Shown here: positions 17,026 to 61,470 of the stretch, in pieces
Layout: each line of letters begins with the position of its first letter
How positions within the stretch are numbered: position 1 is the stretch's first letter
Source: Stenotrophomonas indicatrix
GTDB lineage: Bacteria > Pseudomonadota > Gammaproteobacteria > Xanthomonadales > Xanthomonadaceae
NCBI RefSeq assembly: GCF_002750975.1
Contig: NZ_PEJS01000001.1
Location: forward strand, 2,976,001-3,040,000
DNA: 64,000 bases
Direction: 5' to 3'
Position numbers and translations under genes: made by a program
Notes under the pieces: model-generated
Database searches by the model: none
Seen by the model: the letters and a program-made list of their open reading frames with translations, nothing else
What the model was told of the DNA's origin: nothing

Positions 17026-17111
17026 AGGGTTCGGCAGGGCTGCGCCCTGCACCTGCAGATGCCGAAGCAAGGGCGACGGCAACAGCAACAGCAGGTATTC
17101 CGTGGGATGGC

Positions 17112-17286
17112 GGGGCGGTGTCGAATTGCGGGGACGCCGCAAGTACGTCCCTGTAGGCTTGGCAGCCGCTTGCTCGTGTGCGCTTTCCTGCGCACACGGC
17201 AAGACCGGGGTTGGGCGTCCTGCCCAACCCGCCCGAGGCATGCCTCGGGCCCATGCGGCTGACACCCCGCAATCCGACACCGCCCC
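17112..17286 (+). repeat. Variable-stem hairpin element, copy 1 (expanded)
   Basis: Arms GGGGCGGTGTCG-A-ATTGCGGGG at 17112-17133 pair with 17265-17286. The core contains ACGCCGCAAGTACGTCCCTG and TAGGCTTGG. Extra nested hairpins sit where other copies have only a CATCCATG palindrome: CGTGTGCGC/GCGCACACG, GGTTGGGC/GCCCAACC and CCCGAGGCATGCCTCGGG. CTGACAG follows on the inner side. Convergent intergenic region. Confidence 0.8.
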
Positions 17287-17378
17287 ACCTCTGACAGTTT
17301 TCCGGTGGCTGATGGGTCCACGCCATGCGCGGATGCTGTTCTTTCAATTGTCGAAATATTCGATTTCGACGGAGATTC

Positions 17379-17401
17379 ATCCACGCATGGCGTGGATCTA
17401 C
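17379..17401 (-). repeat. SMAG/REP palindrome, ATCCACG class
   Basis: ATCCACGCATGGCGTGGAT followed by CTAC, lying between hairpin copies 1 and 2. A related palindrome GTCGACC-AA-GGTCGAC follows at 17404-17420. Confidence 0.75.
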
Positions 17402-17471
17402 GTGTCGACCAAGGTCGACACCCACCAAGAGCAGGCCATGCCATTCCGAGAGTTCGCGGAAATCTGTCGAA

Positions 17472-17573
17472 GGCGGGGTGGGTCCGGTTGCGGGGGCGTG
17501 AGCCGCATGGATGCGGCGACCGAGCTTACATGGACATACTTGCAGCGTCCCCCGCCACCGGACCCACCCCGCC
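17472..17573 (-). repeat. Variable-stem hairpin element, copy 2
   Basis: Inverted relative to copy 1. Arms at 17472-17498 and 17546-17573 (GGCGGGGTGGGTCCGGT and its complement) pair almost perfectly. The core on the minus strand reads GCAAGTATGTCCATGTAAGC and CCGCATCCATGCGG. Together with copy 1 it fills most of the 629-bp gap between the exporter and the sensor kinase. Confidence 0.8.
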
Positions 17574-17654
17574 ATCCCACGGAATGCCAGCTTTTGCTTT
17601 TGCTTTTGCTTTGCCGTTGATTCGGCGGGTGCAGGGCGCAGCCCTGCCTAACCC

Positions 17655-33134: not shown

Positions 33135-33212
33135 GGCGGGTTCCGGTAGGGAAATCGGCCATCGAGCCTTCGCGGGGCTCGCGTTCGAAGTGCACGTTGG
33201 GTGCAGGTTCGA

Positions 33213-33327
33213 ACCATCTTTCGGTGGACGCCACGGTCCCCGCAGGATTTGGCACCTACGCAGGCGCTTTCGCGTCTGCGGGCTGCCCCGGCTTCAAAGG
33301 GCCTGTCCCTCTGCCGGTCTCGATGGT
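33213..33327 (-). ncRNA. SAM-I (S-box) riboswitch upstream of metX
   Basis: The minus-strand leader reads CAGAGGGACAGGCCC, then TTTGAAGCCGGGGCAGCC and GGTGCCAAATCC, the conserved S-box core in the right order. Stem P1 closes as ACCATC (33322-33327) with GATGGT (33213-33218). A further GC stem (CGAGCC/GGCTCG, about 33164-33182) lies between it and the metX start. It has no U tract, so control may be translational or by an uncertain terminator. It should switch off metX-metB-hom when S-adenosylmethionine is plentiful. Confidence 0.88.
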
Positions 33328-33466
33328 GGAGCCACGATGCCAGTCCTTTCCGGACATGTCAATCCCTTCATGCGGATAAAGAGATGGATGAATGCGAAGC
33401 CCCCACCCTTCCCCCGTCCCGACAGCTTGCGTAGAGTCCCGGCGGTCCATGTCGCTGGAGCCTTCG

Positions 33467-38852: not shown

Positions 38853-38895
38853 GTTTACAGCGTTGTTCGCAGCGCCTCGTTCTCCCGCGCGTAGA

Positions 38896-38997
38896 GCCGG
38901 AGCAAGGCGACAGGCAGGACACGCCGTAAATACGTCCCTGTAGGCTCGGTCGGCGCATCCATGCGCCTCACGGTCCTGCCTGCCGCCTTGCTCCGGC
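38896..38997 (+). repeat. Variable-stem hairpin element, copy 3
   Basis: Arms at 38896-38920 and 38973-38997: GCCGGAGCAAGGCG-A-CAGGCAGGAC pairs with its complement with one mismatch. The core has ACGCCGTAAATACGTCCCTG, TAGGCTCGG and GCGCATCCATGCGC. GGACAG follows on the inner side. It lies in the convergent gap asmA/CBS. Confidence 0.82.
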
Positions 38998-39073
38998 TTC
39001 GGACAGTTCCCTGCGCGCGCGGAACAGGAGCAGGAATTCAAAATCAAAAGAAGAAAGCAGAATCAAAAGCAGT

Positions 39074-39095: not shown

Positions 39096-39148
39096 CAACG
39101 GCAGATAGTCAGGGTGAAGGCCGCCGCGCTCGCAGGAACGTGTCCTGA

Positions 39149-39250
39149 GGCGGAGGGCATGGCCGTGCAGGACCGTTGGCGCCATGGATGGCGCCATCGA
39201 GCCCCCATGGACGGGTTTACGGCGTGTCCTGCACGGCCATGCCCTCCGCC
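39149..39250 (-). repeat. Variable-stem hairpin element, copy 4
   Basis: Perfect 25-bp inverted repeat, 39149-39173 with 39226-39250 (GGCGGAGGGCATGGCCGTG and onward). The core, inverted relative to copy 3, contains GGCGCCATGGATGGCGCC and, on the minus strand, ACGCCGTAAACCCGTCCATG. The stem sequence is unrelated to copy 3. Confidence 0.85.
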
Positions 39251-39345
39251 TCCCCGGCATGCCAGGCAGGCGCTGCCCTGGCTTTGGCTTTGGCAGCTGC
39301 TTGAAAAAGCGGGCCGGCGGGCCGCAGGCCCGCCAGCGACAGAAC

Positions 39346-51568: not shown

Positions 51569-51672
51569 GGCCGGAGGGGTGGGATGCCCAGGGGACGCCG
51601 TGAATACGTCCCTGTAGGCTCGGGCGCGCCATCCATGGCGCTTACGCCCCTGCGCATCCCACCCCTCCGGCC
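51569..51672 (+). repeat. Variable-stem hairpin element, copy 5
   Basis: Perfect 19-bp arms 51569-51587 (GGCCGGAGGGGTGGGATGC) and 51654-51672, continued inward by CAGGGG/CCCCTG. The core has ACGCCGTGAATACGTCCCTG, TAGGCTCGG and GCGCCATCCATGGCGC. CTCTGACAG follows. It lies in the convergent gap between the hotdog gene and the DUF1304 gene. Confidence 0.85.
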
Positions 51673-51846: not shown

Positions 51847-52030
51847 GGTCGGGCGGGTGGGCGGTGCAGGGGCGTTGGCGCCATGGATGGCGCCAACGAG
51901 CCTACAGGGGTGAGGGCGCTTTGCTTGCGAAGCATTGCTTCGCGAGCGACCGAACGCACAGCCGCCAGCGGCTGGGCCGGGCCCCGGAGGGGTACTTGCG
52001 GCGTCCCCCGCGAACCCAACCCGCCCGACC
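51847..52030 (-). repeat. Variable-stem hairpin element, copy 6 (expanded)
   Basis: Outer arms GGTCGGGCGGGT (51847-51858) and ACCCGCCCGACC (52019-52030), with a less perfect inner stem. The inverted core has GGCGCCATGGATGGCGCC and, toward the right arm, GTACTTGCGGCGTC. About 80 extra bases with their own small hairpins (GCTTGCGAAGC, GCCGCCAGCGGC) separate GCCTACAGG from GTACTTGCGG, as in copy 1. Confidence 0.75.
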
Positions 52031-60401: not shown

Positions 60402-60584
60402 GACCGGGTCCGGCAGCAGAGGAAACAAGAACGCGCATTATCCCAGATCGGTCGGCCGCAGGTCGCGCCGCAGCGCAGCGGGGGGATGTTGGCCGGCCTG
60501 CGGCCGGCGGGCGCTTTCTACAAGCCAGGGCGCAAAGCGCAAAGCCGAAGCGCGTCGGCTCTGGGTTCTCTCGGCTTGGTCGGA

Positions 60585-60676
60585 GCAGCGTGGGCACGCG
60601 GGGGACGCCGTAAACCCATCCCTGGGGGCTTGGCCGCCGCATCCATGCGGCGGACACCCCCGCGCGCCCACGCTGC
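60585..60676 (+). repeat. Variable-stem hairpin element, copy 7
   Basis: Arms 60585-60604 (GCAGCGTGGGC-A-CGCGGGGG) and 60657-60676 pair with one mismatch. The core has ACGCCGTAAACCCATCCCTG, GGGCTTGG and CCGCCGCATCCATGCGGCGG. It lies upstream of gcvT, so it is the one pair not in a convergent gap. Confidence 0.82.
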
Positions 60677-60752
60677 CCCTCCCTTCCGGAGTTCCCGGTG
60701 ACGGGACGGAAGGCAAGAGCGGTTGTGGATGTCGATACATATATGGAGAGAA

Positions 60753-60789: not shown

Positions 60790-60872
60790 GGGCACACAGA
60801 GCGCAGCGACCGGCGTTTGCTTCCCGCTTTTGATTTCTTTTCCGTGGTCTGGACGCGCACGGAAACTGTCGG

Positions 60873-60950
60873 GGGTCGGGCGGGTGGGCTGGGCAGGGGT
60901 GTCCGCGGCATGGATGCCGCGGCCAAGCCTACAAGGACGTACTTGCGGCG

Positions 60951-60957
<7 letters not shown>
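60873..60957 (-). repeat. Variable-stem hairpin element, copy 8 (truncated)
   Basis: The left arm GGGTCGGGCGGGTGGGCTGG and core (CCGCGGCATGGATGCCGCGG, GCCTACAAGGACGTACTTGC) are present, inverted relative to copy 7. The matching right arm is missing because the sequence turns into the C tract at 60951. Confidence 0.75.
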
Positions 60958-61068
<111 letters not shown>

Positions 61069-61069
<1 letters not shown>

Positions 61070-61470
61070 TGCACCGCCACCACCCGAACCAGCGTGCCGG
61101 CCGGCAACTCCGGCCCACCCACCTGCCACGACGCGTCGTCGATGCTGACCCTGCCCTGTCCGGCAACGATGGCCTGCTGCAAGGGCACCACCCGCCCGAC
61201 CAGTTGTTCAGCGCGGCGGTTCAGCAGCGGCGCGTCGCTCTGCCGCGCACGCGGCTTGCCCCAGTGCCGGTAGCACTGGATCGACAGCACGCTCAGCACC
61301 ACTAAAGCGACCACCTGCCACAGCACCGGGATATCGGCGAACACCGCTACCAGCGCGAACACCGCCGCCGCACCGATGCCGATCCACAGCATGAACGCGC
61401 CGGGCGCCAGCGCTTCGGCGGCGAACAGCAGCAAGGCCAACGCACCCCAGGCAACGACTTCCCAGCGCAT
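61069..61470 (-). CDS. NfeD family membrane protein, 3' end lost
   Basis: 134 codons are readable. Two to three N-terminal membrane helices (VVAWGALALLLFAAEALAPGAFMLWIGIGAAAVFALVAVF) precede the NfeD OB-fold domain (LNRRAEQLVGRVVPLQQAIVAGQGRVSIDDASWQV...LVRVVAV). About ten more residues and a stop are expected, but the frame runs into poly-C. It starts 1 bp after the stop of the SPFH gene, its usual partner. Together they form a membrane raft-type or membrane protein quality-control module. Confidence 0.85.

Follow-up and report, generated by a model that had tools for sequence, protein, structure and literature searches.

The window analyzed here, a 64,000-nt stretch that is part of a 4.56-Mb genome (G000), contains eight copies of a hairpin element, the first two of which form a pair flanked on one side by a gene of the MdtD transporter subfamily and on the other by a hybrid histidine kinase-like gene. 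An intact element measures ~105 nt and consists of an outer stem (P1) around a three-way junction with two small hairpins (P2 and P3). The initial annotation had placed eight copies in the window, and both their number and their positions were confirmed by direct reading of the sequence and by a covariance model of the 64-nt core (R1), which was trained on 59 sequences from the window's genome (alignment A2) and matched exactly these eight copies at E <1e-3. Four weaker R1 matches were obtained in the window, three of which are the reverse strand of copies 4, 6 and 8, and the remaining one (E 5.1) resembles chance. The arms of each copy, described as matching each other, are indeed complementary, with matching arms of 15-28 nt per copy. 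The copies and their parts are as follows.

Copy 1: 17109-17289, strand -; arms 17109-17133 and 17265-17289; R1 match 17128-17200 on strand -.
Copy 1, P2 loop: 17147-17152, strand -; reads AGGGAC on that strand.
Copy 1, P3 loop: replaced by an insert of ~80 nt, itself with two hairpins that carry AGGA in the loop.
Spacer of the first pair: 17290-17468, no strand assigned; palindrome pair 17317-17335 with 17378-17396.
Copy 2: 17469-17576, strand +; partner of copy 1; arms 17469-17496 and 17549-17576; R1 match 17491-17554.
Copy 2, loops: strand +; P3 loop 17507-17512, ATGGAT; P2 loop 17530-17535, ATGGAC.
Copy 3: 38895-38998, strand -; arms 38895-38920 and 38973-38998.
Copy 4: 39147-39252, strand +; partner of copy 3; arms 39147-39173 and 39226-39252, 27 of 27 positions paired.
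Copy 5: 51569-51672, strand -; arms 51569-51594 and 51647-51672.
Copy 6: 51847-52030, strand +; partner of copy 5; outer arms 51847-51861 and 52016-52030.
Copy 6, interior: strand +; insert in the P2 hairpin; P3 loop within 51882-51889.
Copy 7: 60582-60679, strand -; arms 60582-60604 and 60657-60679.
Copy 8: 60871-60968, strand +; partner of copy 7; intact core; poly-C from about 60956 in place of the right arm.

Three of the eight copies are altered, namely those at 17112 (the ~80-nt insert, within its second hairpin), 51847 (the P2 insert) and 60873 (poly-C). The nearly pure run of C at 60956-61070, which engulfs the right arm of copy 8, appears to be an assembly or sequencing artefact. In the spacer of the first pair (17290-17468) CTGACAG / CTGTC adjoin the two stems; 46 of 71 elements of this genome have the CTGACAG-like flank (CTGTC on the other strand), which had been ascribed to all copies, no more than 20 nt from the stem. 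Outside the stems, for example at window positions 17078-17094 and 17590-17612, the flanks of many elements carry AACAGCAACAGC / GCTTTTGCTTTTGC runs, one strand of which is an ARN-repeat of the kind bound by Hfq and the other U-rich.

On the strand that reads ANGGA, the P3 hairpin, whose loop AUGGAU is closed by C-G, is followed by a single A and then by P2, which reads GCC UAC ANGGAY GUA, a 5-nt bulge (as a rule UUUAC, UUCAC or CUUGC) and GGC, after which two bases lead back into P1. The outer stem spans 19-29 bp in 71 elements, with 25-26 the usual length, and most intact copies fall within 22-28 bp; the GGA motifs of P3 and P2 stand 23 nt apart (columns 19 and 42 of A2). The shared core that had been noted in the window is real and is made up of two small hairpins. 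Variation of P2 among 80 elements of this genome consists almost wholly of compensated changes, the upper stem being TAC/GTA in 51, TCC/GGA in 14 and CCC/GGG in 13, with two others, and the lower stem GCC/GGC in 63, GCT/AGC in 12 and GGC/GCC in 3, again with two others. At the base of P3 two pairs are GA/GA in 20 of the 59 rows of A2, AA/GC in 3 and Watson-Crick in 36.

The proposal that selection has kept the fold rather than the sequence is strongly supported by the covariation of the core. Double changes occur in 17 of 21 core pairs, the double-change cells numbering 178, as against 54.5 for shuffles and 0-13 for slid pairings, and 95.6% of 1193 cells in the 21 pairs are paired, compared with 78.9% in shuffles and 38-51% for slid pairings; one of five covariation measures, the number of further pair types, was not above shuffles (22 vs 23.2). 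That a single-strand structure is under selection is near certain. Minimum-energy folding yields both ANGGA loops in 23 of 70 elements of this genome and 42 of 109 from others, figures that count against the RsmA reading set out below, and at least one ANGGA loop in 60 of 70 and 97 of 109, respectively. P2 is weak on its own and marginal in energy folding.

The identity of the folded strand can be read from the mismatches in P1, because a G·U pair is tolerated in RNA and its complement A·C is not. Among 97 usable elements (of 112 distinct elements from other genomes) P1 shows 166 G·T and 24 A·C mismatches on the ANGGA strand, with 71 elements leaning toward G·T and 6 toward A·C, and purine mismatches (A·G or G·A) number 30 as against 2 for their complements (T·C or C·T). 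The asymmetry recurs in the outer stem beyond the model, where 73 elements from other genera, one per stem type, gave 115 G·T vs 20 A·C (50 of these unlike stems leaning toward G·T and 5 toward A·C), and the window's own genome agrees in smaller numbers (22 vs 6). The folded strand is a single strand of ANGGA polarity, an asymmetry that fits RNA and single-stranded DNA alike.

On this strand both loops read C-ANGGAN-G, that is, an ANGGAN hexaloop closed by C-G, which we take to be the CsrA/RsmA binding-site consensus, and only the N columns vary freely. In the training set the P3 loop is fixed (AUGGAU in 59 of 59 rows of A2) and the P2 loop varies at its second base and less at its sixth, reading ANGGAY in 58 of 59 rows, with Y at the second place in just 21. 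Since R1 was trained on the window's genome, conservation of GGA among its matches is partly by construction, a bias that the comparison among equally invariant training columns is meant to offset. Cores of exactly 64 nt from other genomes were counted, 135 distinct ones in all. In their P3 loop the second base differs from that of the training set in 41.5%, with all four bases represented, and the sixth in 16.3%, mostly U to C, while the A, G, G and A columns depart in 2.2, 1.5, 3.0 and 1.5%; for the P2 loop the figures are 57.8% at the second base, 45.9% at the sixth (C or U in nearly every case) and 0-0.7% for A, G, G and A. The free columns are, in these 135 cores, the N columns of the CsrA/RsmA hexaloop. 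Extra GGA motifs within 25 nt of the stem are found 5' in 63 of 71 elements (34.7 in shuffles) and 3' in 40 of 71 (15.9 in shuffles), and the genome encodes a CsrA 88% identical to that of E. coli over 52 residues. Sites bound by CsrA are hairpins that carry GGA in their loop and as a rule come in pairs to suit the dimer (PMC4333381), and the 23-nt distance between the two GGA motifs means that one CsrA (here RsmA) dimer could grip both. From its loops the element is likely to bind CsrA/RsmA.

The eight copies of the window are a small part of the complement of this genome, for which R1 found at least 150 copies; all per-genome R1 counts are lower bounds, because a fixed number of candidates was scored (150, 86, 21 or 14). 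A pattern search allowing up to 3 mismatches located 63 places, and 80 distinct copies in loci fetched from this genome fit the core with up to 5 substitutions. One contiguous 400-kb block holds 34 elements in 21 clusters, and 800 kb in total (this block and a further 400 kb picked for known matches) hold 70 elements in 44 clusters. The claim that copies come as inverted pairs applies to 26 of these 44 clusters but not to the other 18, which have no R1-detectable partner and are singles, 14 of one orientation and 4 of the other; pair members lie 209-365 bp apart from start to start. The ANGGA sequence faces outward in all 26 pairs mapped and, therefore, a transcript that runs across a pair, whichever its direction, has a single binding face, always in its second element. 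No cluster midpoint (0 of 44) falls within a called gene, with genes called by a codon-usage script trained on the window, and among gaps of at least 100 bp clusters occupy 16 of 55 convergent, 4 of 94 divergent, and 13 of 88 and 11 of 73 codirectional ones. The mapped copies are intergenic and lie mostly on the downstream side of genes. The transcript of the nearest upstream gene reads its side of the pair as the opposite strand, which speaks against the RsmA reading. A promoter-like signal in the pair spacers, as judged by a simple consensus score, was not above shuffles (1 of 52 vs 2 of 52 shuffled), and by this score, and with no U-tract at the stem, the elements do not show the promoter and terminator of a stand-alone gene of the CsrB/RsmZ type. 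Two loci of one genome of the Xanthomonas genus group (L160 and L180, genome G077) carry head-to-tail tandem elements ~65-71 bp apart and not inverted pairs.

Searching Stenotrophomonas and Xanthomonas genomes with a covariance model had been suggested as a check, and the search did find elements. Among 61 relatives, the window's genome included, 32 have R1 matches, in three families of the order. Within the genus 9 of 37 genomes have no match and 2 have one, and the elements are therefore dispensable. At the level of the family 72 of 247 genomes have matches, representing 16 of 54 genera, and in a sample of the class 66 of 369 genomes do, representing 58 of 271 genera. Three genomes of the Xanthomonas genus group hold at least 129, at least 116 and at least 68 matches. 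Across 80 named comEA loci of ~20 kb each or less, 36 R1 matches fall in 18 of 29 loci (L229-L257), all of Xanthomonas, including X. hortorum, X. euroxanthea and X. arboricola; the remaining 51 loci, 12 of them from Stenotrophomonas, have no match. The ComEA protein of one group of genomes (g37) is identical to that of named Xanthomonas.

How the stems relate to one another differs among genomes. In 55 of 71 elements of the window's genome no other right arm is a better partner than the element's own, ties being counted in its favor, in line with the self-matching stems first noted; nine of the 80 elements were left out of this test, their second loop being absent or altered. The further statement that the outer stems differ completely from copy to copy fails in this genome, where stem types recur and 14% of pairs among 70 elements are at least 80% alike; in some other genomes the stems are private to their locus. 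In one of these, G628, 18 element pairs share at least 97% identity in the core, yet in 17 of them the outer stems are below 50% identity, and the stems pair with themselves at 95% on average, as against 55% crosswise. Unrelated stems on identical cores also mark 25 of 94 pairs in genome G103, and just 1 of 16 in G388, where whole stems are shared. Identical cores with unrelated stems imply that compensated drift alone is insufficient, so that the copying mechanism initially invoked is needed in places such as G628. Two routes would give this outcome: at each site the core inserts into a palindrome or creates one, or else the cores are homogenized while stems drift.

Comparison of single loci gives a glimpse of how such elements change. 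One locus, downstream of a transporter gene, was compared in 30 of 61 genus members; R1 copies are present in 25, and the relatives display whole-element replacement, losses and inserts. At a site in Xanthomonas (site A) some forms have the hairpin and others lack it in its entirety, the difference lying beside GCAAGG, and since similar flanks recur at a second site (B), loss of the hairpin at site A is as likely as insertion. No clean empty site was found among the loci compared, which leaves insertion into ready palindromes and fold-back copying without such a case. At one intergenic site in genus g70 two copies (L100 and L112) differ, by eye, by paired changes, and in locus L138 the interior appears by eye to be inverted within the same stem. 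Pairs whose two members have like stems (at least 80% alike) number 0 of 26, against 2.74 expected, in a list in which four arms derive from inserts; as ~5% of shuffles were as low, this signal is too weak, and avoidance of like stems within pairs was left aside.

The initial annotation regarded the family as undescribed, a view that did not survive comparison with the catalogs: TwoAYGGAY and, on the other strand, Ysr224 are its kin in Rfam, and YPAL/RU-2 in print. At the gathering score Rfam reports nothing in the window except a SAM riboswitch (RF00162, 74.1 bits; 33211-33329, strand -), and a scan of seven loci at E <=10 returned generic long hairpins (microRNA models) and weak Ysr224 matches. 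The TwoAYGGAY model (RF01731) applied to the whole genome gave at least 27 matches at E <=10 (150 of 288 candidates scored), of which 26 coincide, as checked by hand, with R1 elements on the same ANGGA strand, 22 of these 26 at E <0.2. Its best score was 43.2 bits against a curated cut-off of 43, with all other matches below, and one of 14 control genomes responded, none above the cut-off. A gathering-level Rfam scan of the four best places with the default filter returned nothing, not even the 43.2-bit match; a full Rfam scan of one place had TwoAYGGAY as its top family by bits (38.8), on the same strand and in clan CL00106, although this place was absent from the seven-locus scan at E <=10, and TwoAYGGAY was not among the matches of 20 loci scanned at E <=0.5. 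Copy 6 of the window is also a weak TwoAYGGAY match (E 0.87).

Clan CL00106 groups TwoAYGGAY with CsrB and RsmV. The family was introduced by Weinberg in 2010 (PMC2864571), its binding of CsrA was predicted by Gardner and Eldai (PMC4333381), and the available descriptions record it for human gut, Gammaproteobacteria and Clostridiales. Two AYGGAY-type loops, tandem G·A in one stem and a poorly conserved outer stem are its hallmarks (PMC4333381), and the present elements likewise have the tandem G·A (GA/GA in 20 of 59 rows) and an outer stem that is variable yet paired. They differ in that the loop rule found here is ANGGAY (P2), with any base at N, rather than AYGGAY, and in being a high-copy repeat, which the available descriptions of TwoAYGGAY do not mention. 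Among the matches listed for TwoAYGGAY in open-licence papers, none concerned Xanthomonadaceae by title.

RU-2, which is YPAL, the Yersinia palindromic sequence, is a 168-bp element whose sequence has been printed (PMC2759123). It is dispersed and contains a core with P3, P2 and the bulge, reading GCGCC-AAGGAT-GGCGC followed by GAGCC-TAC-ATGGAT-GTA-TTTAC-GGC. Over the 29 bases CGAGCC..GGCGTC it shares 22-28 identities with the copies of A2 (best 28, with L017); without gaps over 64 nt it shares at most 33 with the elements, because its P3 is shorter. YPAL is longer and has other flanks, and the available text of PMC2759123 describes no CsrA role for it. No paper joining YPAL with CsrA was found in the open-licence literature, and for CsrA binding together with repetitive extragenic palindromic elements that literature yielded, in the parts available, just one general review. 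Ysr224 (RF02770) has the same core as the elements and aligns, residue by residue, with their opposite strand, with 15 matches in 13 of 20 loci and a best score of 44 bits against a cut-off of 70. The two Rfam families RF01731 and RF02770 seem to describe a single kind of element from opposite strands. Kinship with TwoAYGGAY and YPAL is very likely, and the best explanation is that the element belongs to, or is a close branch of, a class-wide family comprising TwoAYGGAY, Ysr224 (reverse strand) and YPAL/RU-2. This assignment links three catalog entries that no available text was found to connect, and it supplies the strand that probably works as well as a likely binding partner.

SMAG and other GTAG REPs, as well as ERIC, resemble the elements in being dispersed palindromes, and with ERIC there may be some resemblance around GTGAATCC. 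SMAG, a 23-bp GTAG-tagged palindrome typical of Stenotrophomonas (PMC2613905), has neither a three-way junction nor ANGGA loops. Identity with SMAG/REP was rejected: the elements are not 20-40 bp GTAG palindromes but ~105-nt three-way junctions, and the SMAG consensus differs. Allowing one substitution, the window has a single SMAG, and 36 of 101 loci from this genome also contain the repeat.

In Xanthomonas campestris the 3'UTR of comEA gives rise to an sRNA, RsmU, for which binding to RsmA is reported both in vitro and in vivo (PMC7694677). RsmU carries loops of like kind (ACAAGGACGU, ACAGGAUGU), and Xanthomonas comEA loci carry GACAGGAUGUC and GACAAGGACGU. Downstream of comEA in the window's genome (L221 from 1755) several CAGGAUG-type loops are followed by a terminator-like hairpin, and this stretch, which Rfam assigns to CsrB at just 13.8 bits, is probably the counterpart of Xanthomonas RsmU. 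RsmU shares with the elements, as do sRNAs of the CsrB/RsmY/RsmZ type, the GGA hairpin loops, but it has a single locus and its own terminator, and no shared fold was detected. That RsmU might be a copy of the element was rejected, as R1 finds no match on the RsmU region, and RsmU is therefore a different RNA with the same kind of loop. Changing all four GGA motifs of RsmU did not abolish RsmA binding or the overexpression phenotype (PMC7694677), and GGA loops alone are therefore not proof of binding.

We favor, with moderate confidence, the prediction that the element is a dispersed structured RNA, located mostly downstream of genes, that binds RsmA/CsrA and titrates RsmA. P1, which varies between copies, would present P3 (ANGGAU as a rule) and P2 to RsmA, and one RsmA dimer would grip both ANGGA loops. 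Provided that the ANGGA strand is transcribed, the copies may load RsmA onto the 3' regions of mRNAs and together titrate it, beside the RsmU-type sRNA downstream of comEA. A distributed sponge made up of many copies is plausible. If RsmA binds as predicted, genomes with many copies would contain a large additional reservoir of binding sites, one that current Csr/Rsm models omit, and if the sponge is real, RsmA activity would depend on bulk transcription past gene ends.

It is unlikely that the copies are instead a mobile DNA palindrome (a MITE or REP-like element) whose single-stranded DNA hairpins, ANGGA loops and bulge included, act as a transposase signal with no RNA role, the fold being retained for the sake of movement. 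The copies are dispersed, patchy and modular, with identical cores at many loci, and the same locus is filled differently in sister species; moreover, mobility has been ascribed to YPAL, with 3-26 bp of target sequence duplicated near dyad symmetry (PMC2229807), and single-stranded DNA of one strand would also favor G·T over A·C and tandem G·A. Such an element does not account for the coincidence of the free loop positions with the N positions of the CsrA consensus, for the extra GGA in the flanks, or for kinship with an RNA family that Rfam groups with CsrB, and searches with two cores against 72,556 plasmid records and with one core against 50,697 phage records found no copy at the sensitivity used.

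Improbable, too, is a bidirectional terminator or mRNA 3'-end stabilizer acting through the long stem alone, despite the great stability of the element (z about -9 vs mononucleotide shuffles) and its enrichment in convergent gaps (16 of 55) over divergent ones (4 of 94). Neither strand has a U-tract directly at the stem in 71 elements, U prevailing on the reverse strand just 9-11 nt away (33, 51 and 31 of 71), and the long stem leaves the two conserved loops, the bulge and the strand asymmetry unexplained.

A selfish or neutral repeat, whose arms are matched by template-switch repair of imperfect palindromes and whose cores are homogenized by gene conversion, would fit the whole-stem swaps at one locus between species, the core-identical copies with unrelated self-matching stems and the remnants that resemble hairpin loss. 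Template switching is, however, strand-blind and restores Watson-Crick pairs, so that 115 G·T vs 20 A·C is not expected, and because of this asymmetry it is insufficient as the whole story; we rate it very improbable as such, although template-switch repair may operate beside selection. That the reverse (TCC) strand is the working RNA is scarcely credible, for although Ysr224, the sole sRNA annotation met and given as temperature-responsive in a review (PMC9029176), matches that strand in every one of its 15 hits, which lie in 13 of 20 loci, all strand tests favor the ANGGA strand and the tandem G·A in 20 of 59 rows of A2 would become C·T mismatches.

Beyond the RsmA-titrating RNA that we favor, a broader reading is possible but on balance doubtful, namely that of a class-wide family that spreads by its fold, with a near-fixed two-clamp core copied to hundreds of sites, private local stems and a sponge coupled to transcription, in which the private self-matching stem would be gained at each site from or with local DNA. 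Private stems on identical cores pose a clean question, that of how palindromes are made, and the copy number, the spread and the locus-specific stems raise new questions that can be tested.

The ~80-nt hairpin-rich insert seen in copy 1 (window 17171-17250) recurs at the P3 loop in several copies, and another recurs at P2. Copies of the insert elsewhere are visible as R1 matches of 138-144 nt in loci L194, L196 and L212. In the P3 insert AGGA is retained in the loops while the adjacent loop bases vary.
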